A stretch of 40,831 nucleotides of DNA. Source: Prevotellaceae bacterium (GTDB lineage: Bacteria > Bacteroidota > Bacteroidia > Bacteroidales > UBA932). The notes beneath the pieces are model-generated. The model ran no database searches and was not told the origin of the DNA. It saw nothing but the letters and a program-made list of their open reading frames with translations. The position numbers were made by a program, and so were the translations under genes. Numbering within the stretch: the stretch's first letter is position 1; every line of letters starts with the position of its first letter. Location: positions 1 to 40,831 of the forward strand of contig JAISFN010000082.1 in the NCBI GenBank assembly GCA_031263585.1. Reading direction: 5' to 3'. This document shows, piece by piece, positions 2,556 to 27,243 of this stretch.

Positions 2556-2563
2556 TATCAAAA

Positions 2564-9961: not shown

Positions 9962-10434
9962 TTACAAAAATATAAAATTACTTACTGATTATAAAAACTT
10001 TACAGTAGTATACTTTTTACATTACCACCGAATTATGTTCTATATTCAACCGGAGATACTTTGAAGAAGCTTTGTTTAAAGACTAATAATAGCTTGTGTA
10101 ACGTATAAAAGTCAATTTAGCCATATATTTGAATAATCATTTATTTTTATCACTAATATATTAATTGACAATAAATAAAGCAAAATTGCTTTTAAAATTA
10201 TCAACATTGGCAGTTATTAGATAAAAAATATTTTTACCTTTACGCAAATGATAATCAATTTAAATTTACTATAGTATCCTCCTAAATATTGCAGGTTTAA
10301 AATAATGTATTGGTTTAGTTTAGTTTGTTGTAGGCTTTTATAATTTAAAGCAATATAAAGTTATTTACACTATTATTAATACTTAACTATGAATCAGTAT
10401 CATAAAGCTATTTAATCATATAAACAACATATTT
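9962..10434. other. AT-rich intergenic region upstream of the Ter module
   Basis: 470 bp without a gene. It contains an exact -7 box TATATTTG at 10124-10131 (plus strand) and a near match TACCTTTA at 10235-10242. Neither has a TTG at the right spacing, so the start point of the Ter operon is not settled. If either box is used, the leader of the first terD would be roughly 190-300 bases long. Confidence 0.4.
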
Positions 10435-11025
10435 ATGGCAATTGTTTTAACTAAAGGACAACGAATTGAGATAGGTTTGTCGAAAGTAGGTGTTGGTTTG
10501 GGATGGGATCCCAATGAAGGTACCGGATATGATTTTGATTTGGACGCTTCAGCATTTATGCTTGGAGAAAGCAAAAAATTGCTGAAAGATGAGTACTTCA
10601 TTTTTTACAATAACGTTTGCGGACGTGGACATCAGAGCGAAGAATGTCATTGTGCAGACGGATTGTTCGGAATTAAAAGTTCGGGCGATGACACTACCGG
10701 CGGTAGTAGCGATGGAGACGACGAAACACTGATGGTTGATTTGACTAAAGTCCCGTCGGAAATTCAGGAAATCATTTTCACCGTAACTATCCATGATTAC
10801 GAAGCACGTAAACAGAATTTTGGACAGGTTCGTAACTCATTCATTCGCATTTACAACGCTCAAACAAACGAAGAAATTGCCAAATATGAATTGGATGAGG
10901 ATTTTTCAGTTGAAACAGCCGTTGAATTCGGTCGTTTGTACAAACGCAACAACGAGTGGAAATTCGAAGCAATGGGCATAGGCTATAAAGGCGGATTACA
11001 ATATTTTGTAGACAAATACGTATAA
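10435..11025 (+). CDS. terD: TerD-family protein with a Cys/His insert
   Basis: A cytoplasmic TerD-fold protein of the chemical-stress (tellurite, phage, oxidant) response; family members bind Ca2+ through acidic loops. The 196 residues show the start MAIVLTKGQRIEIGL, then GLGWDP, FDLDASAFML, the acidic SDGDDETLMVDL loop, TVTIHDYEARKQNFGQVRNSFIR, and the end FGRLYKRNNEWKFEAMGIGYKGGL. Compared with the paralogue at 11976-12530, it carries about 17 extra residues after FYNNV. These hold Cys62, His66, Cys71, His72 and Cys73, a possible extra metal site. First gene of the plus-strand Ter block, followed after 140 bp by the TerA-like gene. Confidence 0.93.
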   Translation: MAIVLTKGQRIEIGLSKVGVGLGWDPNEGTGYDFDLDASAFMLGESKKLLKDEYFIFYNNVCGRGHQSEECHCADGLFGIKSSGDDTTGGSSDGDDETLMVDLTKVPSEIQEIIFTVTIHDYEARKQNFGQVRNSFIRIYNAQTNEEIAKYELDEDFSVETAVEFGRLYKRNNEWKFEAMGIGYKGGLQYFVDKYV

Positions 11026-11165
11026 TAGAGTTTATATTTAATAAAAGATTATTGTGTATTATTATCAATAATTTACAATATATTATGTATTATTTTGTAT
11101 TTAGCTTATTTTCAGCCAATTTTAAAATTGAATATAATGTTTAATAAACTAAAAATTATACAAGT

Positions 11166-11825
11166 ATGGCAATTAATCTGAATAAAATCACCTTGGAAAA
11201 ACAAGGTGACAGTCATAAAATTGACTTAACAAAAGGCGGTAGCGACCTGACAAAAGAAATTATTGTAAACTTAAACTGGTCTCAACCCGAAAAAAAGAAA
11301 GGTTTTTTTGCGAATCTTTTCAGTGGAAACCAGGAAATAGACCTTGATTTAGGTTGTTTTTATGAATTGGCAGACGGACGTAAATCTGTAATCGACGGAT
11401 TACAGTTTGCTCACGGCGTCGGCGGGCCCCGCAATAAACCAACCCGACAAGGCTGTTACATCGAGGCCCCTTGGGTATGGCACTCGGGAGACGATCGTTC
11501 AGGCGCTGGTGAGGGCGAAAATATCCTGGTTAATCCTACAGGTATCGGCGACCTGAAACGTATGATAATCTATTGTTTTATTTATGACGGTGTTGCAAGA
11601 TGGGACTTGTCGAACGGTATTGCAACCGTTAAAGTAACTGGGAACCCCGACATTGTTGTTGAAATGGGTAAACAAACCGATCCCCGTAAATTCTGTGCTG
11701 TTGCAGAGATATTGTTTGATAAAGAATCGATTACCGTAAAAAAACTTGTATCGTTCCACAACGGACACGAAGAGTGCGATAAAGTATACACATGGGGAAT
11801 GAAATGGGAAGCCGGAAGTAAATAA
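11166..11825 (+). CDS. TerA-like TerD-superfamily protein
   Basis: A 219-residue TerD-superfamily protein of the TerA-like branch. It has an N-terminal strand region (KITLEKQGDSHKIDLTKGG), a WSQPEKKKGFFANLF linker, IDLDLGCFYELADG, a distinctive GCYIEAPWVWHSGDDRSGAGEGENILVN acidic loop that replaces the canonical TerD Ca2+ loop, and a C-terminal RKFCAVAEILFDKESITVKKLV / YTWGMKWEAG. Family knowledge suggests TerA-like proteins work with TerD and TerB in a membrane-associated metal-responsive complex. It has no signal peptide. The gene lies between two terD genes on the same strand. Assignment to the TerA rather than the TerZ/TerF branch is by motif memory. Confidence 0.8.
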   Translation: MAINLNKITLEKQGDSHKIDLTKGGSDLTKEIIVNLNWSQPEKKKGFFANLFSGNQEIDLDLGCFYELADGRKSVIDGLQFAHGVGGPRNKPTRQGCYIEAPWVWHSGDDRSGAGEGENILVNPTGIGDLKRMIIYCFIYDGVARWDLSNGIATVKVTGNPDIVVEMGKQTDPRKFCAVAEILFDKESITVKKLVSFHNGHEECDKVYTWGMKWEAGSK

Positions 11826-11975
11826 ATCCAATGTGCTGATATGTTGATTTGCGAATGTGCTAATGAAAAGATTAATAATCAAAATGGGCAAACACATTCA
11901 TTCATTAAACTGTCTTATTTTCAAATAAACATATTAGCCTGTTTTCAAATTAGCAAATTAACGCATTATTAAAAC
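11826..11975. repeat. Imperfect inverted repeat between ter genes, copy A
   Basis: The 150 bp gap holds two arms that pair imperfectly, about 24 of 36 positions: AATGTGCTGATATGTTGATT... on the left and ...AAATTAGCAAATTAACGCATT on the right. The TTAGCAAATT words also occur at 15677-15870. Probably a dispersed intergenic hairpin repeat rather than a gene. Confidence 0.45.
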
Positions 11976-12530
11976 ATGGGAATAAATTTAGAAAAAGGAC
12001 AACGGGTAAGCGTAACTTTACCTAAATTTGTAGTAGGCTTGGGATGGGACACAAACTCATCGTCAACCGGAGATGATTTCGATCTCGATGTTTCGGTTTT
12101 TATTTTGGGCGAAAATAAAAAATTAGTATCCGACGGGCATTTTGTTTTTTACAATAATCTGAAATCGGCCGACGGCTCGGTGGAACATACAGGCGATAAT
12201 CGTACAGGCGAAGGAGATGGCGACGATGAGTCTATAAAAATTGATTTGTCGAAAGCCGATCCAAGGGTTACCGAAATGTGTTTTGTAGTAACCATACACG
12301 AAGCCGAAAACCGCAGGCAAAATTTTGGGCAGGTTCGTAATTCGTTTGTACGCATTTACAACCCCGATACCAACGAAAAAATTTTGGAATATGAGTTGGA
12401 AGAAGATTTTTCGATTGAAACTGCCGTAGAGTTCGGACGTTTATATAAAAAAAACGGAGAGTGGAAGTTTGAAGCCGTTGGCGTTGGTCAAAAAGGCGGA
12501 TTAGCTGATTATTTAAACAAATATAACTAA
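11976..12530 (+). CDS. terD: TerD-family Ca2+-binding stress protein
   Basis: A canonical 184-residue TerD/TerE-type protein: MGINLEKGQRVSVTLPK start, VGLGWDTN, DDFDLDVSVFIL, the classic Ca2+ loop HTGDNRTGEGDGDDESIKIDL, VTIHEAENRRQNFGQVRNSFVRIYN, and the end FGRLYKKNGEWKFEAVGVGQKGGL. Its acidic loop is complete, so Ca2+ binding is likely. It shares long blocks with the protein at 10435-11025, so the two are paralogues. The gene is followed by a broken TerX-like gene. Confidence 0.94.
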   Translation: MGINLEKGQRVSVTLPKFVVGLGWDTNSSSTGDDFDLDVSVFILGENKKLVSDGHFVFYNNLKSADGSVEHTGDNRTGEGDGDDESIKIDLSKADPRVTEMCFVVTIHEAENRRQNFGQVRNSFVRIYNPDTNEKILEYELEEDFSIETAVEFGRLYKKNGEWKFEAVGVGQKGGLADYLNKYN

Positions 12531-12599
12531 CCTAAACATACGGCTATTGATTTCCAACGTATTGATTTGATAAAAGATGTTGATGCACATTAACTAGCT

Positions 12600-12980
12600 T
12601 TTGCGTAAGCGCTAAGTGGGGCACTATCGAAACTAAAAGCGACTTTTCGGGAATGAGTGAAAAAGTGACTAATGCTGATTTAGATTTAAGTTGCGTATTG
12701 GTTAACAGCAATAACAAACTTTGTGATTATATTTGTTCACCTTTTTGTAAAACCGAAATACTTCCTTCAGAAATTCGGTTTGCTCCGAAACAATTAACCA
12801 CTGGCGATAATGTTTTGTGACACTCCGGCGATGGTTTGGAGGGAGATAAAGGCGGTGACGACGATTTGGACAATGAAATTATTACGGTTGATTTAACGGA
12901 ACTTGACAGTAATGTTGCGCAGATTTTCTTTTTCCTGAATAATGTCGGTCAGGAAGATTTTTCATAGATACGTTTCGGCT
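12600..12980 (+). pseudogene. TerX-like TerD-superfamily gene, 5' part (broken)
   Basis: One reading frame, from about KWGTIETKSDFSGM through LDLSCVLVNSNNKLCDYI, TTGDNVL, HSGDGLEGDKGGDDDLDNEIITVDL and IFFFLNNVGQEDFS, gives a clear TerX/TerZ-like middle section with an intact acidic loop. It is interrupted by TGA (12817-12819, between NVL and HSGD) and TAG (after EDFS, near 12966), and the N-terminal region is missing. The C-terminal remainder lies 1.7 kb away at 14708-14902. Confidence 0.8.
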
Positions 12981-12982
12981 TT

Positions 12983-13192
12983 GGCCCTTACATAATGATT
13001 ACTAACAAGCTTTTTGTGTTCAAAGACGATGACGAGTTGTATGCTTACGAGGTTTAATAATAAAGCATTAAACTACTGAAAATACAGCGCATTATTAATG
13101 ACGGGACAGATGCTTGGCGATCCTTAGTTTATGCCGACAGAATGCTGATTGTAGGGGATGCATACAAAGTTAAATGTATTAAAATTGTATAG
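12983..13192 (+). pseudogene. Remnant of a PQQ-like beta-propeller protein C-terminus
   Basis: Continuing in the same frame as the TerX fragment, the sequence changes character to PYIMITNKLFVFKDDDELYAYEV, three stops, then INDGTDAWRSLVYADRMLIVGDAYKVKCIKIV and a stop. The LFVFKDDDELYAYE and YADRMLIVGDA words look like repeat blades of PQQ/WD-type beta-propellers. Only the last ~60 residues are left. It lies directly upstream of the thioredoxin-like gene and probably came in with it. Confidence 0.5.
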
Positions 13193-13195
13193 TAT

Positions 13196-14659
13196 ATGAA
13201 AAGAGTATTTTATCTGATATTCGGAAGCATTCTTTTTTTCGCTTGCTTGCAGGAAAAGGATCGATTAGAACCAAAAAGAACGGTTATTGCAGGCATTGTC
13301 AATAACTTTCCGGATAATGCAAGCGTACTTGTTATAAACTATTGTAATCCTTTAAGCGATGAATACCGGTTTGCCCAAAACTTAACTGAATCAAATGGAT
13401 ATTTCCGAACCGAACACGAATATGTTTTTGCTCAAAATTTAACCATTCGTTTTGCTAATAGATTCATTAATTTGTTTGTCCACCCTGGAGATTCCATATT
13501 CATAAGTATTGATGCCAATGAAATAGAGCGTAATTTTGACAATGCTGTCACTTTTTCAAATGACAATTCAAAACTAAACAAAGAGTTATTTATTTGGACA
13601 AACTATTGGTATAATTCGCTCAATAAGCATACTACACAGTTTGATGATAATGCTGATCCCGAAGATTTATTAATAAGTGTCAAACAAAATTTCGACAAAG
13701 CTCAAGATTCTATCCAAATATATTCCCAAAGGACAAATATGAGCGATTTTTTAAAAAAATGGGCTTATATCGACCATAAATTTATAATGGCAAATTCCCT
13801 TATAGACTACAACAATCCAGAAGCCGATAAATGGGATATTTTTACAAATCCTGTATTTGATGTTTTTAATGAGAATAATTTCCAGTCAATGTATTTTTGT
13901 TACCACCTTTCCGTGTGCATGAATGCCCTTATCCAAGGCGATGTTGAAATCACATCTTTATTCTCAGATAAAGAGTATGTTCCTGCTATCCGGCTGACAA
14001 TTGAAAGCTTGCTTAAAAAAGCGCCGGAGGGAGTTGCCAGGGACGTAATGTTATTTGGTTTTTTGAAAAATAAGTTAAAAGAAATGCCCGAATTGTATGA
14101 TGCTATACCTGAAATCAAAACAGCTTTTTCACAAGAACTGTTTTATATAAAATTAGGGGAAATAGTAGACGGGATTAGAAAAACAGAACAAATCCAACAA
14201 TTATATGAAACAGAGACGCAATCAAGCAATATTTTATTTTTAGCCGACAATAATAAAATTGAAAATCTTCCAAAAGTAAAGTTACTGAAATTCCTTACCG
14301 AAAAGCATAGAAATAAAGTATTATATATTGATGTTTGGGCAACATGGTGCGGTCCTTGTATAAAAGAGTTCGAAGCTGCACCCAGCCTACATAAGTATTT
14401 CAAAGACAAAGATGTTATTTTTATTAACTTATGCATGGGTTCTAATTTCAAAAATTGGCAGTCGGCAATAACGAAGAATAATATTGGCGGGGAAAATTAC
14501 TTTTTAGATGATAATGCGTCACAACTATTCAGCGCAGAACATAATTTAGGGGGATATCCATTTTACATAGTAATCGGCAAAACAGGGGAAATATACAATC
14601 ATGCGCCAAGACCGTCGAACTTAGAAGCTGTAATTCAAAAAATAGAGTCATGTTTATAG
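13196..14659 (+). CDS. TlpA-type thioredoxin-domain lipoprotein
   Basis: A 487-residue lipoprotein with lipobox FFAC (Cys17), so it is anchored in the cell envelope on the periplasmic side. The first ~330 residues form a helical/beta region like the N-terminal part of Bacteroidota TlpA-family proteins (GYFRTEHEYVF, LFVHPGDSIFISI). The C-terminal thioredoxin fold has the active site WATWCGPC near residues 382-388, and YPFYIVIGKTGEI carries the cis-proline region. It probably reduces or exchanges disulfides of exported proteins. It sits inside the split TerX-like gene with the beta-propeller remnant, so it is an insertion into the Ter block, not a core member. No obvious promoter. Confidence 0.85.
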   Translation: MKRVFYLIFGSILFFACLQEKDRLEPKRTVIAGIVNNFPDNASVLVINYCNPLSDEYRFAQNLTESNGYFRTEHEYVFAQNLTIRFANRFINLFVHPGDSIFISIDANEIERNFDNAVTFSNDNSKLNKELFIWTNYWYNSLNKHTTQFDDNADPEDLLISVKQNFDKAQDSIQIYSQRTNMSDFLKKWAYIDHKFIMANSLIDYNNPEADKWDIFTNPVFDVFNENNFQSMYFCYHLSVCMNALIQGDVEITSLFSDKEYVPAIRLTIESLLKKAPEGVARDVMLFGFLKNKLKEMPELYDAIPEIKTAFSQELFYIKLGEIVDGIRKTEQIQQLYETETQSSNILFLADNNKIENLPKVKLLKFLTEKHRNKVLYIDVWATWCGPCIKEFEAAPSLHKYFKDKDVIFINLCMGSNFKNWQSAITKNNIGGENYFLDDNASQLFSAEHNLGGYPFYIVIGKTGEIYNHAPRPSNLEAVIQKIESCL

Positions 14660-14707
14660 TAAAAAAATTTAATCTCGGCCGAACGCCGGTTTATAATTAA
14701 AACCTCA

Positions 14708-14902
14708 AGGTATGAAGGGATACAAAATGCAAAAAAGAAGGAACCTCGACTAAAGTAAAAGAAGTGTTTGTATTGTATAACGCGTATCGGACAAAGCACA
14801 ATTTGCCAGTAAACGTGCCTTGATTATGGAAAAATTATACAAGAAAAACGGCGCATGGAAATTTGATAACATCGGTGATCCTACCGAGGATGTATTTCCG
14901 TA
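14708..14902 (+). pseudogene. TerX-like gene, 3' part (broken)
   Basis: Across two frame changes this stretch reads RYEGIQNAKK, EGTSTKVKEVFVLYNA and LIMEKLYKKNGAWKFDNIGDPTEDVFP before TAG at 14900-14902. This is the C-terminal end of a TerX-like protein (compare GRLYKRNNEWKFEAMG in the TerD paralogue). It continues the fragment that ends near 12980 with only a few residues missing, showing that the region between was inserted into one gene. Confidence 0.75.
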
Positions 14903-15037
14903 GCAAACAATTGTACGCGTTGTTCAATCGTATTTGTAATAAAGTATAATTTTACCGAACATAAAAATAATTTAAAGTATTTAATTCCACTAACTTGTAC
15001 TTTACTATAATAAGTTGGCGGTTTATAAATTTGTGAT

Positions 15038-15676
15038 ATGAGAAGATTACCAGTTTATTTATTGTTGGACACATCTGGCTCTATGATGGGAGAACCGATT
15101 GAGGCCGTCAAAAACGGTGTCCAGGTTTTAATATCTACTTTAAGGCAAGATCCGTATGCCCTCGAAACAGCTTATTTAAGCGTTATTACTTTCGACAGCT
15201 CGGCAAGGCAGGTTGTACCGCTGACCGAATTATCAGCCTTTCAAATGCCCGATATTCAGGCTACCGGAACAACATCGCTGGGTGAAGGCTTGACTTTACT
15301 GGCTAACAAGGTAACAGCGGAAGTTACCAAAACAACTGCCGATGTAAAAGGCGACTGGAAACCGTTAGTATTTATTATGACCGACGGCGGGCCTACTGAT
15401 AACTGGAAAAAAGGCCTGATCGATTTTCAAAAGCAAAAATTCGGAATGGTAGTTGCCTGTGCAGCTGGCCAGGCTGCCGACGTAAATGTGTTAAAACAAA
15501 TTACCGAAGTTGTTGTACAGCTCGATACAGCCGACAGTACAACTATCAAGGCTTTCTTTAAATGGGTCTCGGCATCGGTAAGTACAGGCAGTAAAAAAAT
15601 TGAGGATAGCGGAAAAGACATTGCCGGAATAAGCGAATTACCGCCGCCGCCGCCCGAAGTTAATATTGTAGTTTAA
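15038..15676 (+). CDS. terY: TerY-type von Willebrand factor A protein 1
   Basis: A 212-residue soluble vWA protein. The metal-ion adhesion site is intact: DTSGSM (residues 9-14), the Thr in ATGTTSLGEG, and the Asp in IMTDGGPTD. The end is a proline stretch, LPPPPPEVNIVV. TerY proteins are vWA domains encoded with a PP2C phosphatase and a Ser/Thr kinase (the TerY-P triad); they are thought to recruit or assemble the Ter stress complex through a bound divalent metal. First of three paralogues in a row (15038, 15871, 16760). The proline-rich tail is shared with the second copy. Confidence 0.92.
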   Translation: MRRLPVYLLLDTSGSMMGEPIEAVKNGVQVLISTLRQDPYALETAYLSVITFDSSARQVVPLTELSAFQMPDIQATGTTSLGEGLTLLANKVTAEVTKTTADVKGDWKPLVFIMTDGGPTDNWKKGLIDFQKQKFGMVVACAAGQAADVNVLKQITEVVVQLDTADSTTIKAFFKWVSASVSTGSKKIEDSGKDIAGISELPPPPPEVNIVV

Positions 15677-15870
15677 TAATTAATAATTGAAAATTAGCTA
15701 GTTTACTAAGGAATGCGCTAATGAGTTAATATGTCAATATGCTAATTTAGTAATGATTAATGGAGAAATGTAAATTTACTTATTGTTTATTTTCTAATTG
15801 TTAGCACATTAGCAAATTGGTAAATCGATGCATTACTTTTTAGCAATTAATTTATACCGTTACAGATATA
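15677..15870. repeat. Imperfect inverted repeat between ter genes, copy B
   Basis: The 194 bp gap contains arms around AGTTTACTAAGGAATGCGCT (left) and AGCACATTAGCAAATTGGTA (right) that pair imperfectly. It shares the ATTAGCAAATT word and layout with the repeat at 11826-11975. No gene is visible. Confidence 0.45.
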
Positions 15871-16506
15871 ATGAGGAGATTACCCGTTTACTTGCTTTTG
15901 GACACATCCGGTTCCATGAAAGGTGAACCGATTGAATCGGTAAAGGTAGGCTTGCAGGCTATGATTGCCAGCTTGCGTCAGGATCCCTTTGCGTTGGAAT
16001 CGGTATACATAAGTATTATTACTTTTAATAGGGAGGTAAAACAGATAATGCCGCTTACCGAACTGGAAAATATGCAATTGCCTGAAATTGTTACACCTGA
16101 GTCGGGGCCTACACATTTAGGTGCGGCGCTCGAAATACTTTGCCAAAAGGTTGATACCGAGGTCAAGCTAAGTACACCCGAACAAAAGGGCGACTGGATG
16201 CCCTTACTGTTTATTATGACAGACGGTAAACCGTCGGATTTACAGAAATATAACGCCATGATACCGGAAATAAAAAAGCGACACTTTGCCGGCATAATTG
16301 CCTGTGCAGCTGGTATAAAAGCCGACCCTAAACCGCTAGAACTGTTAACTCATCAGGTATACTCGCTGGATACGACGGACAGTGCTACGTTTAAGCAATT
16401 TTTCAAATGGGTTTCGGCATCGGTAAGTGTGGGTAACCGCAGTATCGGTGCATCCGACGAGATTATGCTGCCGCCGCCGCCGCCCGAAGTACATTCTGTA
16501 ATATGA
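15871..16506 (+). CDS. terY: TerY-type von Willebrand factor A protein 2
   Basis: A 211-residue paralogue of the preceding gene: MRRLPVYLLLDTSGSMKGEP start, MIDAS residues DTSGSM, a GPTHLGAAL Thr loop and IMTDGKPSD, and the same LPPPPPEVHSVI proline tail. Its stop codon overlaps the ATG of the next gene in ATGA, so translation is probably coupled to the small membrane protein at 16503. Both copies share the extended FFKWVSASVS segment before the tail, which may be the surface that meets the phosphatase or kinase. Confidence 0.92.
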   Translation: MRRLPVYLLLDTSGSMKGEPIESVKVGLQAMIASLRQDPFALESVYISIITFNREVKQIMPLTELENMQLPEIVTPESGPTHLGAALEILCQKVDTEVKLSTPEQKGDWMPLLFIMTDGKPSDLQKYNAMIPEIKKRHFAGIIACAAGIKADPKPLELLTHQVYSLDTTDSATFKQFFKWVSASVSVGNRSIGASDEIMLPPPPPEVHSVI

Positions 16507-16763
16507 TAGCTGTGTTAATTAATATCATAATTCTTCTGGCTATCATCGCTTTGTTTGTTTATTCGAAGCTAACGCCGCATAAAGACAGATTATCCAGTCA
16601 ATACCGAAAAATATTCGATATCTGCGACAAAATATTTAACCCGGTATTGAATTTTTTCCGCAAAATAGCAAAGCCATTGCAAGTTGGCTCCGGCATTGCG
16701 GTCGATATGTCGCAGATTATATTGCTTATGCTACTTTTACTAATATTAGTTGCAAGGTTATGA
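16503..16763 (+). CDS. Small two-helix membrane protein, YggT-like
   Basis: This 86-residue protein has a first membrane helix at about residues 2-20 (AVLINIIILLAIIALFVY), a basic middle (YRKIFDICDKIFNPVLNFFRKIAKPL) and a second helix at about 67-85. The stretch NPVLNFFRKI..PLQVGSGIAVDMSQIILL resembles one half of YggT-family membrane proteins (pattern P-L-x-R...G-x-D-x-S-P-I). It overlaps both neighbours by ATGA, at 16503-16506 and 16760-16763, so it is tightly coupled to two vWA genes. I infer that it anchors the TerY proteins at the inner membrane. Function not known. Confidence 0.85.
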   Translation: MIAVLINIIILLAIIALFVYSKLTPHKDRLSSQYRKIFDICDKIFNPVLNFFRKIAKPLQVGSGIAVDMSQIILLMLLLLILVARL

Positions 16764-17800
16764 GAAGATTACCTATATATTTTCTTATTGATGTTTCCGA
16801 GTCGATGGTGGGTGACCCTATCGAGCAAGTACAAGCCGGGATGGCAGCTATTATCAAGGAATTAAAAACTGACCCATATGCTTTGGAGACAGTATACCTG
16901 TCGATCATTGCCTTTGCAGGCAAGGCTCAAAAAATAACCCCGTTAATGGAGATTATAAACTTCTATCCGCCTAAATTGCCCATAGGCGGAGGAACATCGT
17001 TGGGAAATGCCCTTAATTTTCTGATGAATGACCTTGACGCGTCCATCCAAAAAACCACTTACGAGGAAAAGGGCAATTGGAACCCGATAATCTTCTTATT
17101 TACCGATGGCAACCCTACCGACGATGTGAACAGCGCCTTCGACCGCTGGAATCAAAAGTACCGGAAAGCTGCGAATCTTATTGCTATTTCGTTGGGAAAC
17201 AACACAGATACAAACATTTTAGGGCGCATTACCGATGATATATTATTGCTGAAAAATACTGATGAAGAATCGTTCAGTCGCTTTTTCAAATGGATAACGG
17301 CTTCGATAAAAACCAGCAGTGTTGCTGTAACTGAAAGTAATAACACCGGTTTAAGTCTTGCTCCTGTTACCGAGGGCTTAACAAAAATAGAACCGAACAA
17401 ACAAAGCCCAGCCAAAATTGACGAAAACTTTGCGGTCATTCTAGCCAAATGCCAAACCACCAAGCGCCTCTACCTTATTAAATACCAGAAATACCTTTCG
17501 GAATCCAACTACGTGGGGATGAAAGTGCTTGGCTACAAACTGGCTGGCGCATACCCTATTGATAACACATACTTTGAGTTGGCTGACGATAAACAAAGCT
17601 CCCAAACCGTGAATACCGACTCTCTTGATGGTTTCCCCAGTTGCCCGTGTTGCGGCAATCAATACGGTTTTAGCCATTGTGCATGCGGTAATATTTTATG
17701 TACCGGGGGCGAAGAAATTACAACATGCCCTTGGTGTGGCAGTCAGGCTAAATTCGGGTTCAGCGATGGCAGTGCTAACATAACGCGTACAAGAGGATAA
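16760..17800 (+). CDS. terY: TerY-type vWA protein 3 with C-terminal zinc ribbon
   Basis: A 346-residue protein. Residues 1-200 are a vWA domain with a changed metal site: DVSESM replaces DTSGSM, while the GGGTSLGNAL and LFTDGNPTDD loops are kept. A helical linker (KTTKRLYLIKYQKYLSES) follows, then a Cys-rich end (about 292-330) with CPCCGNQYGF, CACGNILC and CPWCG, the TerY-C type zinc ribbon. It starts inside the stop of the membrane protein gene and is 4 bp from the PP2C gene, so it likely links the membrane unit with the phospho-signalling pair. Confidence 0.92.
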   Translation: MRRLPIYFLIDVSESMVGDPIEQVQAGMAAIIKELKTDPYALETVYLSIIAFAGKAQKITPLMEIINFYPPKLPIGGGTSLGNALNFLMNDLDASIQKTTYEEKGNWNPIIFLFTDGNPTDDVNSAFDRWNQKYRKAANLIAISLGNNTDTNILGRITDDILLLKNTDEESFSRFFKWITASIKTSSVAVTESNNTGLSLAPVTEGLTKIEPNKQSPAKIDENFAVILAKCQTTKRLYLIKYQKYLSESNYVGMKVLGYKLAGAYPIDNTYFELADDKQSSQTVNTDSLDGFPSCPCCGNQYGFSHCACGNILCTGGEEITTCPWCGSQAKFGFSDGSANITRTRG

Positions 17801-17804
17801 TTTC

Positions 17805-19490
17805 ATGAAAATCATAGACTTTCTTAATACCATAATTGCCGATGCAAACGAAAATGAAATAAACGATTTTCTTTCGGTGAAAGAGGCCAGTATCATTGCC
17901 GAAATCCATAAGTTATGGAACGAGTATAAACAAAACCCCGTGTCCGGTACAGCAGAAAATCAAGGTGATATCCTGGTTAGAAAAGGTGAAAAAGAAGCTC
18001 TTGCCGGAAACATTGATACCGGCAGGGAGGTAAATAATACCGGATCGGACAAAGATAACATTGAAAAACAGCTTGGTACTGACGATTTGAAAGAGCCTGT
18101 AAATATCAATGAAGCAGAGGATATTCCTCTGGATATTAAAATAAATGATGCATCAACCATTATTATAGATATGGGAATAATTCAGGGAGGAGTCAAACAA
18201 GAGTACAACCAAAAAACCCGCGAAGCTGCAATTAATAAAGCTTTTAACAAACAAATACAAAGTATTCATATCAGTTTGCCGAATGCCAAAGTAAACCAGG
18301 AATATAATGTTGAATTCGATTTTGAAAAATTAGGTATACCCGAAATCGGAGAAATTGAGTTTGAGGGCTTAGGCGAAATCGGGCTGGAATATGCAGCAGA
18401 GGAAAAACGCATAAAAGGAATGCCGACAACTGCCGGCGACCATAAAATAAAACTATTAATAAAACGCAAAAACTGGGAAAACGGAAAACGTATTTTTGAG
18501 TGTAACATTATCCTGATAATCAATCCAGATCCTCGATTGTTGTGGAATAGTATCCCTACACTTACAAGCATATCGTATTATAAGCCCGACAGTGCCGAAC
18601 AATTTTTAGAAGCAGGCTTGAACAAAGTAAAATTTGGTAAAAAATGCATTGTAGCAGCAAGCCAGCGCGGGCGCTCGCATGCCCACGAAGGAAAGCCGCG
18701 CGATGACGATTTTGCCATGTTTTTTGACGAGCAAACAGGCTGGTATATTATGACGGTTGCCGATGGTGCAGGCTCCGCACAATTTTCGAGAAGAGGCTCC
18801 CAAATTGCCTGCGAAACGGTTATAGAGGTATGCAGGGTGCAGCTTACCGCTCAAGACAAAGATTTTGACAAACATATCGAAAATTTTTACAAGGAAAAAG
18901 AACCGAAAATTACCGAAAAACGCAAAATGGTAGGCGATAGCCTTTATACAATTATTGGAGCTGCTGCATTTAAAGCCTATAAGAATATTGAAAAAGAAGC
19001 AGCCGGAAATAACAACCCGATAAAAGATTATTCAACTACCTTAATCATATCTATTTGTAAAAAATTCAAATTTGGTTGGTTTGTGGGTGCCTTTTGGGTT
19101 GGCGATGGAGGTATCGGGATTTATGACCATAAAATTCAATTTCTGAAAGTTTTAGGAGAATCGGACGGTGGCGAATATGCCGGGCAGACTCGTTTTTTAA
19201 CAATGCCCGAGGTAATGCAGCCTAACGAAATTTATCGTCGCTTACGTTTCGATATTGTAAAAGAAGACTTTACATCCGTAATACTTATGACAGACGGAAT
19301 TACCGACCCTAAGTTTGATACGGATGCCAATTTAAATAAAATTGAGAAGTGGAACGATTTATGGGCAGACTTGTCGTCCGAAGTAAATTTTGATGCGCGC
19401 AATGACGAAACGGCTGGACAATTACTTAAATGGCTGGATTTTTGGTCGCCCGGAAATCACGATGACAGAACCATTGCGATTCTTTATTAA
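17805..19490 (+). CDS. PP2C-type protein phosphatase with N-terminal Ig-like region (TerY-P triad)
   Basis: Removes phosphate from Ser/Thr residues, presumably on targets of the kinase encoded next. The 561 residues run as follows: a helical/acidic start (1-150), an Ig-like beta region (about 150-245; ISLPNAKVNQEYNVEFDFEKLG and GMPTTAGDHKIKLLIK, similar to putative-Ig domains), then PP2C from about 270. Metal-binding motifs are GKPRDDDFAMF, VADGAGSAQFSRRG, WVGDGGIGIYD, LMTDGITDP and HDDRTIAIL, all with their Asp residues intact. Lies 4 bp after the zinc-ribbon vWA gene and 43 bp before the kinase. Confidence 0.92.
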   Translation: MKIIDFLNTIIADANENEINDFLSVKEASIIAEIHKLWNEYKQNPVSGTAENQGDILVRKGEKEALAGNIDTGREVNNTGSDKDNIEKQLGTDDLKEPVNINEAEDIPLDIKINDASTIIIDMGIIQGGVKQEYNQKTREAAINKAFNKQIQSIHISLPNAKVNQEYNVEFDFEKLGIPEIGEIEFEGLGEIGLEYAAEEKRIKGMPTTAGDHKIKLLIKRKNWENGKRIFECNIILIINPDPRLLWNSIPTLTSISYYKPDSAEQFLEAGLNKVKFGKKCIVAASQRGRSHAHEGKPRDDDFAMFFDEQTGWYIMTVADGAGSAQFSRRGSQIACETVIEVCRVQLTAQDKDFDKHIENFYKEKEPKITEKRKMVGDSLYTIIGAAAFKAYKNIEKEAAGNNNPIKDYSTTLIISICKKFKFGWFVGAFWVGDGGIGIYDHKIQFLKVLGESDGGEYAGQTRFLTMPEVMQPNEIYRRLRFDIVKEDFTSVILMTDGITDPKFDTDANLNKIEKWNDLWADLSSEVNFDARNDETAGQLLKWLDFWSPGNHDDRTIAILY

Positions 19491-19533
19491 TTGAAGATTG
19501 AAGGTTGAAAATTAATGAATATTCAATGCCTAT

Positions 19534-21030
19534 ATGGCTAAAACAATTAAACTGACAGCAACCGATGGATCTGCGGTTGAATTTGTCGATGAAGTTATTG
19601 GGGCGGGAGGGATGAAAGATGTATATTTCAGTCTCGATAAATCGTATGTTGTTGCATTTTTCCGCGACAAGCAGGACTTTAATGCCAAAGACCGGTTGCA
19701 GAATATAACAGGCGTGTACCGCGAGCGCATTTTTAACGCCGTAGGCGGCGATTACTGGAAAGATTTATTTTGCTGGCCTACTAAAATAGTGGAATATAAC
19801 GGAAAGCTCGGTTTGGTATGCCCTACGTATCAAAAGCAATTCTTTTTTTCGGTAGGCTCTGTTAACAACGATTTTTTAGGCATAAAAGGAAAAGAAAAAG
19901 AGGGCAAATGGTTTGCATCAGCTAAAAACCAGAACAAATTTCTGGCTCCTGAAGAAAAAGGCGACTGGTTTAAATACTTCCAAATTTGTATTCGTATCAG
20001 CCGGGCCGTAAAGCGTATGCATGCAGCAGGTCTGGCTCACTCCGACCTGTCGTACAAAAATGTTTTAGTCGACCCCAGTACAGGCAGGGCATCTATTATT
20101 GATATCGACGGGTTGGTGGTTCCCGGCAAATTTCCGCCCGATGTGCTGGGAACGCCTGATTTTATCGCTCCTGAGGTAATAGGCACCAAGCATCTTAAAA
20201 TTGACGATCCCGGACGTAAATTGCCCAGCATCGCCACCGATAGGCATGCCCTGGCGGTAATGATATACATGTACCTGCTTTACAGGCATCCGCTACGGGG
20301 AGGGAAAGTCAACGACCTGGATTCGGCTAAGGATGAGGAATTGTCGATGGGTACTAAAGCCTTGTTTATCGAACATCCGATGGACAAATCGAACCGTGTA
20401 AAAGTAAAGCAGTTGCAACCCAGTCAACTACCTCAAAGCGATCCTGATAAATTACCCTATACCATATGCGGACCCTATTTAAAAGAATTATTTAACAGGG
20501 CTTTTATCGACGGCTTGCACAATTCAGCACTACGCCCCACCGCCGATGAATGGGAACAAGCCTTACTAAAATCGGTTGATTTAATGCAGCCCTGTCAAAA
20601 TAAAAACTGTAATAGCAAATGGTTTGTATTCGACAATTCGACCAAGCCCAAATGTCCGTTTTGCGGAACTGAGTATAAAGGGCAACTACCTGTATTAAAC
20701 CTGTACTACTCGCCTAAACTGGGAGTTTTTAAGCCTGAAAATTACAGGCTGATGGTTTACGACAAACAACTGTTATACATGTGGCATGTAAATCGGTTTG
20801 TAAATGCAAACGAACGTTCAACAGCCGAACAACGGATTCCGGCGGGCGATTTCCATTTCCACAATGGTAAATGGATTTTAATAAACCGTAGGTTACTAAA
20901 TCTGTATGATAAAGATAACGATAAAAAAATAGAAGTGGGTGATTTTGTAGAACTAAGCGAGGGGAAAAAGATACTTCTTTCAACTGAGGACGGAGGTAGG
21001 CTTATTATTGTACAATTAGTAAACAGTTAA
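19534..21030 (+). CDS. Divergent Ser/Thr protein kinase with zinc ribbon (TerY-P triad)
   Basis: Likely phosphorylates Ter components, opposed by the adjacent PP2C. In 498 residues: glycine loop GAGGMKDVYFS (near 26-36), a strand YVVAFFRDKQD with no lysine at the usual VAIK place, the catalytic loop AHSDLSYKNVLV (about 167-178; Asp kept, HSD for HRD), DIDGL in place of DFG (near 190), and GTPDFIAPEVIG as the APE motif. A zinc ribbon (CQNKNCNSKWFV...CPFCG, about 354-378) and a beta-rich C-terminal region (HFHNGKWILINRRLLNLYD ... LIIVQLV), perhaps FHA-like, follow. Last member of the kinase-phosphatase pair. Confidence 0.9.
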   Translation: MAKTIKLTATDGSAVEFVDEVIGAGGMKDVYFSLDKSYVVAFFRDKQDFNAKDRLQNITGVYRERIFNAVGGDYWKDLFCWPTKIVEYNGKLGLVCPTYQKQFFFSVGSVNNDFLGIKGKEKEGKWFASAKNQNKFLAPEEKGDWFKYFQICIRISRAVKRMHAAGLAHSDLSYKNVLVDPSTGRASIIDIDGLVVPGKFPPDVLGTPDFIAPEVIGTKHLKIDDPGRKLPSIATDRHALAVMIYMYLLYRHPLRGGKVNDLDSAKDEELSMGTKALFIEHPMDKSNRVKVKQLQPSQLPQSDPDKLPYTICGPYLKELFNRAFIDGLHNSALRPTADEWEQALLKSVDLMQPCQNKNCNSKWFVFDNSTKPKCPFCGTEYKGQLPVLNLYYSPKLGVFKPENYRLMVYDKQLLYMWHVNRFVNANERSTAEQRIPAGDFHFHNGKWILINRRLLNLYDKDNDKKIEVGDFVELSEGKKILLSTEDGGRLIIVQLVNS

Positions 21031-21177
21031 GTATTTGAAGATTTTATGTTGTTGATTTTATATTTTATAATATGATGATATAATGTATTTTATGATTTAT
21101 AAAACATAGCAGTAAATTCTTTCGACTATTTAACAGAGTTTATATGGATTAAAGATGTAAAGACAGAAAAACAAAAC

Positions 21178-21215
21178 GCCTCTCTGCCACTTTCCTAAGG
21201 GAAGGTCGAGAAGGC
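21178..21215. repeat. GC-richer imperfect palindrome after the kinase gene
   Basis: GCCTCTCTGCCACTTTCC, TAA and GGGAAGGTCGAGAAGGC can fold back on themselves with mismatches. It lacks a following run of T, so a terminator is doubtful. It is the only GC-richer patch in the 266 bp gap and may be a remnant of a dispersed repeat. Confidence 0.25.
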
Positions 21216-21296
21216 TGTTCTTTAAATTCTTGTTCAACGATAAATAGTAATAAATTAACGCGTTACTATTAACGCATAACTATAAAAACAAAAAAT

Positions 21297-21668
21297 ATGA
21301 GTAAATTAGACGAATTAAAAAAATCAATTTTAGCTAATGGTGTTATTGATAAAGACGAAATTGCCGAACTTCGCAAAGTTTTATTTGCCGACGGCATTAT
21401 TGATAAAGAAGAGGCCGAATTTGTATTTGAATTGAACGATGCGGTATCGGGTAAAAATAACGATGCCAGCTGGCAAACTTTGTTTGTTGATGCAATATCA
21501 AGCTATTTACTGGAAGATGAAATTTCTCCGGGCGAAATTGATGACGAAGAAGCAAATTGGCTATTGGCCAAAATACAAGGCGATGGTAATTTAGATGCTA
21601 CTGAAAAGGCTTTGTTAGCCAACTTAAAAGCCAAAGCAAAAAATTTTCCTGCCATGCTCAACTTGTAA
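21297..21668 (+). CDS. TerB-like protein
   Basis: A 123-residue soluble acidic protein with repeated DGxIDxxE-type turns: NGVIDKDEIAEL, DGIIDKEEAEFVFEL and GDGNLDATEKALL. This matches the all-helical TerB family, whose conserved acidic residues are thought to bind metal and which act as cytoplasmic partners of membrane Ter proteins. It lies 266 bp after the kinase on the same strand and 129 bp before the Ca2+ ATPase. The assignment is by pattern only; a distant EF-hand-like relationship cannot be excluded. Confidence 0.7.
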   Translation: MSKLDELKKSILANGVIDKDEIAELRKVLFADGIIDKEEAEFVFELNDAVSGKNNDASWQTLFVDAISSYLLEDEISPGEIDDEEANWLLAKIQGDGNLDATEKALLANLKAKAKNFPAMLNL

Positions 21669-21688
21669 TTTGGTCAGTAGTGGTTGAA

Positions 21689-21735
21689 AGTTGAAAATAG
21701 GAAGTTTATTGTATATAATCTTTTTATTTTCAACT
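21689..21735. repeat. 11-bp perfect inverted repeat between terB-like and Ca2+ ATPase genes
   Basis: AGTTGAAAATA (21689-21699) and TATTTTCAACT (21725-21735) are perfect inverted copies with a 25-base loop. Similar GGTTGAAAATT words occur just after the PP2C stop (19495-19517), so this looks like a dispersed intergenic motif. Confidence 0.4.
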
Positions 21736-21797
21736 CTTAATATCAAGTAAATAATCATTATTTTGATTTTCGCATTTATACAAAACATCTTTATAAA

Positions 21798-24725
21798 ATG
21801 GAACAAAAACGACATTATACCGGACTTACTAATGAGCAGGTTTTGGAAAGTAGGAAAAAACATGGAGCCAATATTCTTACTCCTCCCAAGCGGGATCCGC
21901 TATGGAAACTTTTTTTAGAAAAGTTTGAAGACCCTATCATCCGTATATTATTAATTGCAGCTTTCCTTTCGCTGGGTATTGCCATTGTACACCATATAAA
22001 TACAGGTGCAGCCGAGTATGCCGAAACCATCGGTATTTTCTGTGCAATTTTACTTGCCACAGGCGTAGCTTTCTGGTTCGAAATGGATGCCAACAAAAAA
22101 TTCGACATTCTGAACTTGGTGAATGACGATACTATGGTGAAGGTAATCCGTAACAGTAATGTTTGCGAAATTCCGAAAAAAGATGTTGTTGTCGGCGACA
22201 TTGTTTTACTCGAAACCGGAGAAGAAGTTCCAGCTGATGGGGAATTACTTGAAGCCATATCCTTGCAGTTAGACGAATCGACGTTAACTGGGGAGCCAAG
22301 TATCAGTAAAACCACCAATCTGGAATATTTTAACAAAGACGCGACGTACCCCTCGAACTGGGTAATGCGCGGAACAAATGTAATGGATGGGCACGGTGCA
22401 TACGAGGTTAAATTTGTAGGCGATGCTACCGAATATGGTAAAGTTGCCGAAAAATCAACCGAAATGACCGGCGAAGAAACACCTCTGAACCAACAGTTGA
22501 ATGTACTGGCCAAATTTATCGGGGTAGTCGGCTTTTTATTGGCTGCGTTAACTTTCAGCGTATTATTCATACGGGATATTTTCCTCGGCGAAGTGTCTTA
22601 TTCTTTAGGTAAGCTGGGATTAATGGGTGCGGTTATTATAGGCGCCATGCTTGCTCTTATCAAAGTTTGGCTGCCCATTATTTACGATGCATTCGAATTA
22701 CTTAGCAAAAAAAAGAAAGTACCTAAAAGCGTAAGCGAAGGTACATGGTTTAAATGGATTGCCACTGGGGTATTTATTTTTATTTTAATTGCTGCATCGG
22801 GTTTTATTTTCGGTGTAAATCCGCTCGATACAAATTCATGGATATCGATTGATGTCGCCGCCCGTGTATTGCGGTATTTTATGGTAGCTGTTACATTAGT
22901 TGTAGTAGCTGTACCTGAGGGATTACCAATGAGTGTGACCTTGAGCCTGGCGTTGAGCATGCGCCGTATGTTACAAACAAATAACCTTGTGCGCAAAATG
23001 CACGCTTGCGAAACAATGGGCGCTACTACAGTTATTTGTACCGATAAGACAGGTACATTAACCCAAAACCAAATGCAGGTTTACGAAACCCAATTTTACG
23101 GATTGGATAACCAGAAACTTACGGATAACGATATCAGCAATCTGATAAAAGAAAATATATCGGCTAATTCTACGGCTTTTCTGGATTATTCCGACCCTGA
23201 AAAAGTAAAGGCGTTGGGAAATCCTACCGAAGCGGCATTGCTACTTTGGTTAAATGCCAATAAAATAAATTATTTGGAAATACGAGAGCAAGCAAATATT
23301 GTAGAGCAACTTACATTTTCGACTGAACGAAAATACATGGCCACTTTGATTGATTCGCCCTTATTGAAAAAACGGGTACTTTATGTAAAAGGCGCACCCG
23401 AAATTGTATTGTCGAAATGTAAAAATGTATTGGCCAAATCAAATGTGCCGGTATCCGAATATCAGAAAGCTATTGAGAACCAGTTGTTGCAATATCAAAA
23501 CCAAGCGATGCGTATGCTGGGTTTTGCCTTTAAATTTGTTGACAAGGATAATAAACTAGCTGTTCGTGAACTGGTTGAAGAAGGGTTAACGTTTGTAGGT
23601 ATTACAGCGATTTCGGACCCTGTACGGGTAGAAGTCCCTCAAGCTGTTTACAAATGCTTGAATGCCGGTATCGATGTGAAAATAGTTACAGGCGATACTC
23701 CCGGAACAGCCAAAGAAGTTGCCCGCCAAATCGGAATATGGAATGAAAACGACAACTTGCGCAACATATTGACGGGGACTGAATTTGAAGTAATGTCAGA
23801 CGAAGAAGCTTTAAAACGTGTTGATTCTCTGAAAATAATGTGTCGCGCACGGCCTACCGACAAGCAACGGCTTGTACAATTATTACAACAGCACGGAGCA
23901 ATTGTTGCCGTTACTGGAGATGGAACTAACGACGCCCCTGCATTAAATTACGCGCATGTGGGCTTATCAATGGGTTCGGGAACTTCGGTCGCTAAAGAGG
24001 CCAGCGATATTACTTTACTCGATGACTCATTCGGCAGCATAAGTACTGCAATTATGTGGGGACGGTCGCTTTATCAAAATATACAGCGTTTTATTTTATT
24101 CCAGTTAACAATTAACGTGGCTGCTTTAATTATTGTATTTTTAGGTTCGGTTTTCGGGTACGAGTTGCCATTAACCATAACCCAAATGCTTTGGGTTAAC
24201 CTTATTATGGATACATTTGCAGCAGGGGCGCTGGCATCGTTACCACCCGACCCCAATGTTATGAATAAAAAACCGCGCAGAAATAGCGATTTTATTATTA
24301 CTCCGGCTATGCGTTTCAACATCTTATTCGTAGGGCTTACCTTCGTTGTTCTATTGATGGGAATGTTGTTCTTGTTTACGCGCCCCGATTTCCTTGCATG
24401 TTTCTTCTCATATATTCCAGAACCTGAAAGATTTGCCTATTCGCGATCCTACTTCTTTACGGTATTTGTATTATTGCAATTCTGGAATATGTTTAATGCA
24501 AAAGCTTTTTTAACAGGCAAATCGGCCTTTGTAGGCATGAACAAAAGCATAGGCTTTATTATTGTTGCTTTGGTTATCTTAATCGGCCAGTTTTTAATTG
24601 TAGAGTTTGGCGGCGATGTATTCCGTACAGTACCGCATATAGGCAGAGACTGGCTGATAATAATCGGGGCAAGCTCGCTTGTATTATGGATTGGTGAAAT
24701 TGCCCGGCTTATCAGGAGAAAGTAA
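21798..24725 (+). CDS. P-type ATPase, Ca2+-translocating (PMCA/SERCA-like)
   Basis: An integral membrane pump of 975 residues that exports a cation, most likely Ca2+, at the cost of ATP. In order: N-terminal cation ATPase region (GLTNEQVLESRKKHGANIL), the actuator motif LDESTLTGEP, membrane helices including VAVPEGLPMSVTLSLALSM (the PEGL signature of Ca2+ pumps), the phosphorylation site VICTDKTGTLT near residue 415, KGAPEIVLSKC, the hinge VTGDGTNDAPALNYAHVGLSMG, and six C-terminal helices with TITQMLWVNLIMDTFAA. Its position right after the Ter genes and before a strong terminator suggests it belongs to the same transcriptional block and sets the Ca2+ level that TerD proteins would sense. 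Confidence 0.93.
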   Translation: MEQKRHYTGLTNEQVLESRKKHGANILTPPKRDPLWKLFLEKFEDPIIRILLIAAFLSLGIAIVHHINTGAAEYAETIGIFCAILLATGVAFWFEMDANKKFDILNLVNDDTMVKVIRNSNVCEIPKKDVVVGDIVLLETGEEVPADGELLEAISLQLDESTLTGEPSISKTTNLEYFNKDATYPSNWVMRGTNVMDGHGAYEVKFVGDATEYGKVAEKSTEMTGEETPLNQQLNVLAKFIGVVGFLLAALTFSVLFIRDIFLGEVSYSLGKLGLMGAVIIGAMLALIKVWLPIIYDAFELLSKKKKVPKSVSEGTWFKWIATGVFIFILIAASGFIFGVNPLDTNSWISIDVAARVLRYFMVAVTLVVVAVPEGLPMSVTLSLALSMRRMLQTNNLVRKMHACETMGATTVICTDKTGTLTQNQMQVYETQFYGLDNQKLTDNDISNLIKENISANSTAFLDYSDPEKVKALGNPTEAALLLWLNANKINYLEIREQANIVEQLTFSTERKYMATLIDSPLLKKRVLYVKGAPEIVLSKCKNVLAKSNVPVSEYQKAIENQLLQYQNQAMRMLGFAFKFVDKDNKLAVRELVEEGLTFVGITAISDPVRVEVPQAVYKCLNAGIDVKIVTGDTPGTAKEVARQIGIWNENDNLRNILTGTEFEVMSDEEALKRVDSLKIMCRARPTDKQRLVQLLQQHGAIVAVTGDGTNDAPALNYAHVGLSMGSGTSVAKEASDITLLDDSFGSISTAIMWGRSLYQNIQRFILFQLTINVAALIIVFLGSVFGYELPLTITQMLWVNLIMDTFAAGALASLPPDPNVMNKKPRRNSDFIITPAMRFNILFVGLTFVVLLMGMLFLFTRPDFLACFFSYIPEPERFAYSRSYFFTVFVLLQFWNMFNAKAFLTGKSAFVGMNKSIGFIIVALVILIGQFLIVEFGGDVFRTVPHIGRDWLIIIGASSLVLWIGEIARLIRRK

Positions 24726-24750
24726 TCTCATTATATTTTGATAGAAAAGC

Positions 24751-24786
24751 AAAGGAACAGTATATGCGCTGTTCCTTTTTGTTTTT
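24751..24786 (+). terminator. Rho-independent terminator after the Ter/Ca2+ ATPase block
   Basis: AAAGGAACAG (24751-24760) and CTGTTCCTTT (24769-24778) form a perfect 10-bp stem with an 8-base loop, followed by a T-rich tail. It lies 26 bp after the ATPase stop and could also act on the convergent gene at 24844. Confidence 0.8.
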
Positions 24787-25999: not shown

Positions 26000-27243
26000 C
26001 TATCCGGCTTTAGTTTCGACCAAATCCACCTGATAGCCCAGTTTCTCCAACTCTTTCTTCAGGTAAGACTTGCGTTTGGCTTCCATCCTCTGGTTGATAT
26101 AGTCGGCTCCAAGTTCCCGGTAATCCTTTTGTGTGCTTAATATATGGTAGACAGACTTCAGGATCGAATGTCCTATAGCTACCAGGGCTCTTTTCTTGCC
26201 CCGTCTTGCTGCCAGCCGGTGATACCTCGCACTGTAGAAGGTATTTTTAGTTTTTGTCGCCGCCCATGCAGCTTCTAGCACTGCCGCTTTGGCTGATTTG
26301 TTTCCGTGGGTGGTTCGTCCGCTTTTTTTTTGCCCGCGCTCTCGTTATTACCGGGAGATATCCCCACCCAGGAACACAGATGCTTTCCGCAGGGAAAGAC
26401 TCTCATATCCAGTCCAATCTCAGCAATAAGGTCTTGCGCCGTTTTAAGATTGAACCCCGGTATGCCTTTGAGCAGCTCGATGACATTATCGTAAGGGGAA
26501 AGCATCTGCCTGACTTTATCGTCAATGTCGGATATGATAACCTCTGAGGCGGCAATATCACGCCTTATTAAATCTAACATGTAAACATGATGTTCGGTTA
26601 TAAACCCGTTGCAGGCTTCCAATAGTTCTTCCTTGCTGGCTTTCAGCTTACCATGATAGACCCTGTCAATATCTTCCGGGCTTATCTGCTTTCCTTCGAT
26701 CAGTTTATCGATCAACTTGGTGGCTACAACACCGTCAGTACCGCTCATCACGCTCGACAATTTTATATTGCAATCTTCCAGAATCCGGTTTATGCGGTTC
26801 TTGTTGGCTGCAATGCCTTGTATCAGCTTTACCCTATACCTGGTCAGGTCCCGCAACTCCCGCTGCTGGCGCGGTGGTATATAACTCGGCTTGAGTAAGC
26901 CGACAAGCAGTAACTTGCAGATCCATGCGCTATCCTTCTTATCGGTTTTGTAACCCGGGACATATTTGATATGACGAGCGTTGACAATCCATACTTTCAT
27001 CCCTGTCGGCTCCAATATATGATATACCGGTTTCCAGTAAACTCCGGTACTTTCCATGGCAACATGGGTAATACCCAATTCCAATAACCAATCTCTTAAT
27101 TCTGTCAAAGAACTCGTGAAAGTAGAGAACTCCCGTGTCGCTTTCTTTATACCTTCGCCTGCCACAGTGGAAACTACTACTTTCTGGCGTACGTCTATGC
27201 CGCATCCCCTGGATACGACCTGATTGAATGTAATTTGATCCAT
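26000..27243 (-). CDS. IS110-family transposase, two frames joined at an A9 run
   Basis: The first frame (27243-26275) has the RuvC-like DEDD domain: GCGIDVRQK (Asp), AMESTGVYWKPVY (Glu) and YKTDKKDSAW (Asp), then the Tnp_IS116 region LKGIPGFNLKTAQDLIAEIG, CSWVGISPGNNESAGKKK. At nine A residues (26331-26323 on the minus strand) the frame must shift -1 to continue as SGRTTHGNKSAKAAVLEAAWAATKTKNTF and end at 26000. Without the shift the first frame ends after 17 foreign residues. The shift falls right after the Ser-x-Gly-Lys segment thought to hold the catalytic serine. It is either an inactivating indel, a sequencing homopolymer error, or programmed slippage. Confidence 0.8.

Follow-up and report, generated by a model that had tools for sequence, protein, structure and literature searches.

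The natural role of ter clusters is a long-open question, and most of their hosts never meet tellurite. Ca2+ binding is known for the TerD family. The classical enterobacterial form, exemplified by the Klebsiella plasmid pSW25HRG (locus L171), comprises terZABCDEF together with a terY/terX/terY/terW side. Pan 2011 is cited in PMC8123226 for Ca2+ binding by Klebsiella TerD, and Daigle 2015 for an effect of a TerD-domain gene on Ca2+ homeostasis in Streptomyces. The best-known role of TerC is in Mn export or metalation, and its superfamily also includes Ca2+/Mn2+ carriers (PMC10550928, PMC12096827); for TerY-P, the role of a metal-sensing phospho-switch has been put forward (PMC11090510).

A Bacteroidota form of the classical ter cluster, with TerY-P, is present in a window of 40,831 nucleotides (the whole stretch of DNA analysed here; positions 1-40,831 of JAISFN010000082.1) from a Prevotellaceae bacterium, GCA_031263585.1, whose genome is 88% complete. 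The block lies at 10435-24725 with all genes on the + strand, as given by open reading frames and by Pfam/NCBIfam calls at curated cut-offs, and every gene named in the first-pass annotation was recovered there. Two TerD, YggT, three vWA, TerY_C, PP2C, protein kinase and PMCA-type Ca2+-ATPase matches scored over cut-off. With one TerA-like protein and one TerX pseudogene besides the two TerD proteins, the block has the TerD-domain complement of a ter cluster. No TerC was found in the window or in the rest of this genome; the block is filed as a variant because TerC is absent and its position is taken by PMCA. Its features, in order, are:

10435-11025, + strand: TerD-family protein 1 (Pfam TerD, 219 bits)
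11166-11825, + strand: TerA-like protein with a divergent TerD domain (weak Pfam TerD match, below cut-off)
11976-12530, + strand: TerD-family protein 2 (Pfam TerD, 245 bits)
about 12590-12976, + strand: TerX pseudogene, N-terminal relic with two in-frame stops (tblastn with the intact TerX of L118)
13196-14659, + strand: thioredoxin/Redoxin-like lipoprotein gene (Pfam Redoxin, 32 bits)
about 14737-14933, + strand: TerX pseudogene, C-terminal relic, frameshifted (tblastn with the intact TerX of L118)
15038-15676, + strand: TerY1, stand-alone vWA protein (Pfam VWA; intact MIDAS, DTSGS..T..D)
15871-16506, + strand: TerY2, stand-alone vWA protein (Pfam VWA; intact MIDAS)
16503-16763, + strand: YggT-family small membrane protein (PF02325; Pfam YGGT, 32.7 bits against a cut-off of 27)
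16760-17800, + strand: TerY3, vWA with a TerY_C metal-binding cysteine domain (PF15616; Pfam TerY_C, 153 bits)
17805-19490, + strand: PP2C phosphatase with an N-terminal extension (Pfam PP2C_2, PF13672, 134 bits)
19534-21030, + strand: TerY-P kinase with a zinc ribbon and a C-terminal beta-rich part (Pfam Pkinase; HSDLSYKN, IIDID)
21297-21668, + strand: acidic six-helix protein of 123 aa, weakly TerB-like; its gene immediately precedes that of the pump in several relatives
21798-24725, + strand: PMCA-type Ca2+-translocating P-type ATPase, in the exporter slot (TIGR01517, 648 bits against a cut-off of 507)
24751-24778, no strand assigned: bidirectional terminator-like hairpin (11-bp stem with 4 G-C pairs, T-rich sequence after it)

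The second TerD protein aligned with the Ca2+-binding TerD structure 2kxt/2kxv, including the acidic GDNRTGEGDGDDE loop, and the TerA-like protein showed 37-41% identity over 99% of its length to TerD-family proteins on many plasmids; its gene is conserved in other Bacteroidota loci. TerX had been read as broken from the sequence alone, and the tblastn search confirmed this, placing its relics in shifted frames with stops, split by the inserted thioredoxin-like gene. Relatives lack that gene at this place, and it lies outside the module. It encodes a lipobox-like FFAC and a CGPC motif, and no transposase adjoins it.

The MIDAS motif DxSxS..T..D was found in all three TerY proteins of the window and is conserved across loci, the motif residues of TerY1 being kept in 53-54 of 54; the TerY3 cysteines are conserved as well. 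The YggT gene overlaps TerY2 and TerY3 by 4 bp each, and YggT lies within the TerY2-TerY3 interval in 32 of the 70 loci having both. TerY3 relatives in four loci (L031, L033, L035 and L046, at about 10000-11000) have no PP2C or kinase nearby, possibly reflecting a second, kinase-free use of TerY3; that of L035 adjoins a DUF4301 protein.

The phosphatase retains its metal-binding Asp residues, which are kept in 70-71 of 71, and the kinase catalytic Asp and Asn were present in 68/68 sequences, as were the HSD and DID residues and the zinc-ribbon cysteines CxxxxC..CxxC. With intact MIDAS motifs, PP2C Asp residues and a kinase bearing a C-terminal zinc ribbon, the proposed identity of the vWA-PP2C-kinase set as the TerY-P triad holds. 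An EF-hand-like loop at the kinase C-terminus (Pfam EF-hand_1, E 0.045) was rejected, being not conserved in 70 kinases. A search for phage carriage of the kinase returned one weak, partial match.

The naming of the 123-aa acidic protein as TerB-like could be kept only in that loose form. Similarity to TerB/DUF533 is present below threshold, and 8 of 9 relatives match TerB weakly (best E 3.5e-4), but the protein itself scored 14.4 bits against the Pfam TerB (PF05099) cut-off of 24.4. A TerB fold found no support either: the structural model reached pLDDT 90, yet no TerB chain was among the Foldseek/VIA-align matches listed. Profile comparison with plasmid TerB gave a probability of 4.6%.

The scan for TerY3, made over one genome per species in 84,980 species, returned 76 loci, whose gene orders were assigned with profile HMMs built from the same loci. 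The block recurs in Bacteroidales, Chitinophagales and Flavobacteriales. A two-contig genome of the same order (L118) has a gene order identical to the window, with TerX intact: TerD-TerA-TerD-TerX-TerY1-TerY2-YggT-TerY3-PP2C-kinase-TerB-like-PMCA. Near-identical orders were found in L005, L006 and L174, the last of which lies elsewhere in the phylum and has the window order with TerY3 and the TerB-like gene not detected. Since the same order recurs in many genomes, it is far beyond chance. The association of YggT and of the PMCA (19 loci) with TerY-P accordingly extends far beyond this genome, settling in favour of the first-pass annotation the question of whether the ATPase and the membrane protein occur beside the triad only here. 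The module is rare and patchy, occurring in 7/393 genomes sampled from the order and 11/395 from the phylum.

Two protein families with no Pfam match also recur in these clusters: u29 (120-142 aa, with GWWG and PWGP motifs; L032 7529-7957 and L008 9590-9952) and u33 (about 320 aa), which follows TelA (L043 6728-7705).

The position downstream of the kinase, whether adjoining it or separated from it by a TerB-like, HAD-PRTase or PrsW gene, acts as a slot for cation exporters. Over the 76 loci it is filled by PMCA in 19, by TerC in 21 and by a Na+/Ca2+ exchanger (PF01699) in one (L049), and no locus has two exporters in the slot. A second Na+/Ca2+ exchanger, in L066, lies upstream rather than in the slot. 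A DUF475/TerC-like protein occupies the slot on a Hymenobacter plasmid, and several loci, mostly from Chryseobacterium, have the kinase with no exporter within 4-7 kb. In the sample of 395 genomes from across the phylum, which was chosen independently of the TerY3 scan, 8 of the 11 kinase-bearing genomes have a slot exporter (PMCA 2, TerC 5, exchanger 1). A 919-aa gene after the kinase in L010 was considered as an exporter and rejected, as it is a rhamnosidase. Four genes separate kinase and PMCA in L017 (14413-20561), where the PMCA begins at the contig end; read by eye, they are one of no assigned function, a HerA-like ATPase, a RecQ-like helicase and a DprA-like protein.

The pump motifs PEGL, DKTGT and NLxxD (cation site) are present in 19/19 slot PMCAs. 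The best solved relatives of the window pump are plant and animal PMCAs, and it is the sole PMCA match in its genome at E<=1e-60; six genomes from clusters without PMCA gave no PMCA match at that threshold.

Slot type broadly follows lineage, with a strong correlation, PMCA being mostly in Bacteroidales, and most PMCA loci form one Bacteroidales group in the kinase tree. One kinase clade with 100/100 support nevertheless unites L029 (TerC), L049 (exchanger) and L123 (PMCA), a grouping repeated with TerY3, PP2C and kinase combined, and in an AU test on 20 rows the monophyly of the PMCA-slot kinases was rejected (p = 2.5e-6). The idea that module PMCAs form one module-specific clade was likewise rejected: they fall in several PMCA clades, interleaved with free-standing pumps, with at least 5 forced changes. 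The kinases of L013 and L005 are closely related and their pumps distant. Unrelated cation exporters have thus taken each other's place in the slot within a persisting kinase lineage. The pump of L075 is very divergent; this record, labelled 'uncultured proteobacterium', has a Bacteroidales-type cluster with its kinase nested in the Bacteroidales clade and is probably mislabelled or a mixed bin.

The spacing of genes in the window differs from that in relatives. The gaps around the TerB-like gene are 266 and 129 bp, against 25 and 1 bp in L118, and gaps are short in relatives generally (median 21 bp from TerB-like to PMCA; 35 bp from kinase to TerC). These gaps and the break of about 2.2 kb from the TerX relic to TerY1 make it doubtful that the entire block is transcribed as one unit here, even if it is so in relatives; with TerX lost and the thioredoxin-like gene inserted, the unit may have been weakened or split. 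A search for the Bacteroidota -33/-7 promoter returned 6 sites against 3.6 expected; TerD1, the TerB-like gene and the pump each lack one immediately ahead of them. The hairpin at the end of the block, which sits between convergent genes, is plausible as a terminator but does not merit the word 'strong' given to it earlier, as it is not exceptional in a region with 23 terminator-like sites against 15.2 +/- 3.7 in shuffles.

Several other elements were observed around these genes. An AT-rich 26-nt palindrome (81%, 5-nt loop; 21684-21740) lies between the TerB-like gene and the pump and has weak similar copies elsewhere in the genome. An IS110-family transposase is present on the other strand just past the cluster (26275-27243), and a PorP/SprF-like type IX secretion membrane protein adjoins a large CHU_C-tailed protein at 1611-5992 of the window.

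The exchange of three unrelated cation exporters beside a conserved kinase points to cation export, probably of Ca2+, as the output of the cluster. The preferred reading, to which a probability of roughly 0.45 is given from sequence and gene order, is a ter stress cluster in which the TerY-P switch would control efflux of Ca2+, or of another divalent cation, through the slot exporter. The switch may be triggered when Ca2+, or another divalent cation, rises in the cytoplasm following stress from phage, from oxidants or at the envelope. TerD-type proteins would bind Ca2+; the vWA proteins would assemble client proteins at the membrane through their MIDAS metal sites, with YggT perhaps helping to anchor TerY3; and the kinase and PP2C would set the phosphorylation state of the vWA-assembled clients, such that the switch would raise cation efflux via the adjacent exporter. 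Ca2+ is the best guess for the ion because Ca2+ transport characterises two of the three slot families and TerD is a Ca2+-binding protein, and the exchange of PMCA, TerC and Na+/Ca2+ exchanger in one slot strengthens the idea. If true, this would be among the few bacterial examples in which Ser/Thr phosphorylation is linked to Ca2+ transport.

A wider proposal, that Bacteroidota ter clusters are phosphorylation-controlled Ca2+-efflux stress circuits in which any available Ca2+ exporter, be it PMCA, the Na+/Ca2+ exchanger or TerC in the role of a Ca2+ exporter, can be plugged into a stable kinase-phosphatase-vWA core, is rather unlikely as a whole. If it were true, TerC and the ter operon would share a common physiological ion.

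As TerC is best known for Mn export or metalation, the common slot ion need not be Ca2+. The slot protein might instead serve Mn or general metal homeostasis, exporting Mn2+ or several divalent cations or metalating secreted proteins, with Ca2+ not the signal and PMCA replacing TerC because it also moves Mn2+. The Mn export and metalation roles of Bacillus TerC proteins (PMC10550928, PMC12096827) and the rank of TerC as commonest slot filler agree with such a role, which is judged unlikely, since the other two fillers belong to Ca2+ families (the PMCA over the TIGR01517 cut-off, the exchanger in PF01699) and TerD, of the 2kxt/2kxv family, binds Ca2+ (Pan 2011, as cited in PMC8123226).

It is less probable still that the cluster serves chiefly in phage defence or biological conflict, with the pump as a hitchhiker or as protection of the cell during the response. 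TerY-P sets do accompany CoCoNuT restriction systems, TerY-P-like modules act in phage defence (PMC11090510), and the rarity and patchiness of the module in the order would fit this role. PADLOC, however, returned no match beyond weak generic kinase ones, Pfam/NCBIfam identified no restriction or nuclease gene inside the cluster, and the exporter slot is filled repeatedly. That the pump is an unrelated neighbour, adjacent by chance and retained in related genomes by descent, is very improbable: PMCA is widespread in the order, with 160 of 393 sampled genomes (41%) having one, and a long gap lies ahead of the pump in the window, but in the sample from the order a PMCA would fall within 5 kb of the kinase by chance with a probability of about 3e-7 (6e-5 without the window), the PMCA-slot kinases are not one clade, their pumps come from different PMCA clades, and the slot is shared with TerC and the exchanger.

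The comparison with described systems separates what is known in this cluster from what is new. Along its full length the window kinase shares 62.7% identity with that of Klebsiella/E. coli ter plasmids, and 2,343 plasmid records match it, mostly from Klebsiella, Escherichia, Salmonella and Enterobacter. As in the window, the Klebsiella plasmid has vWA, TerX, vWA, TerY_C-vWA, PP2C and kinase genes in order, with TerD/TerA genes nearby. The first-pass annotation did not recognise three TerY copies, a small membrane protein and a Ca2+ pump together as a described layout; the three TerY copies are familiar, as Klebsiella/E. coli ter plasmids carry three vWA genes followed by PP2C and the same kinase. 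Unlike in the window, the kinase of the Klebsiella cluster is not directly followed by an exporter, and no YggT separates the vWA genes there. That cluster also has metabolite genes of the ATP-grasp, PRTase and aldolase-like types, which are missing from the window; the window's genome has no PRTase_3.

The ter clusters of Chitinophaga and Flavobacteriia with TerC (L047, L176) share TerD-TerX-TerY...TerY-YggT-TerY_C-PP2C-kinase with the window, but have TerC in the exporter slot and HAD and PRTase_3 genes, or TelA, inside. The TerY-P triad of Anantharaman et al. 2012, as described in PMC11090510, consists like that of the window of vWA, PP2C and a zinc-ribbon-fused kinase; the window triad is tied to TerD/TerA and a Ca2+ pump, whereas TerY-P as treated in PMC11090510 is tied to restriction genes. 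Several TerY-like vWA genes bracket an accessory gene both in Type III-A CoCoNuT (PMC11090510) and in the window, this gene encoding an ATPase in the restriction operon of the former and a small membrane protein in the latter. The known part is thus a ter cluster with TerY-P, and the apparently new part is the replacement of TerC by PMCA, together with YggT; what sets the cluster apart from the systems compared here, with the 2012 work taken as PMC11090510 describes it, is that interchangeable exporters fill a slot downstream of the kinase.
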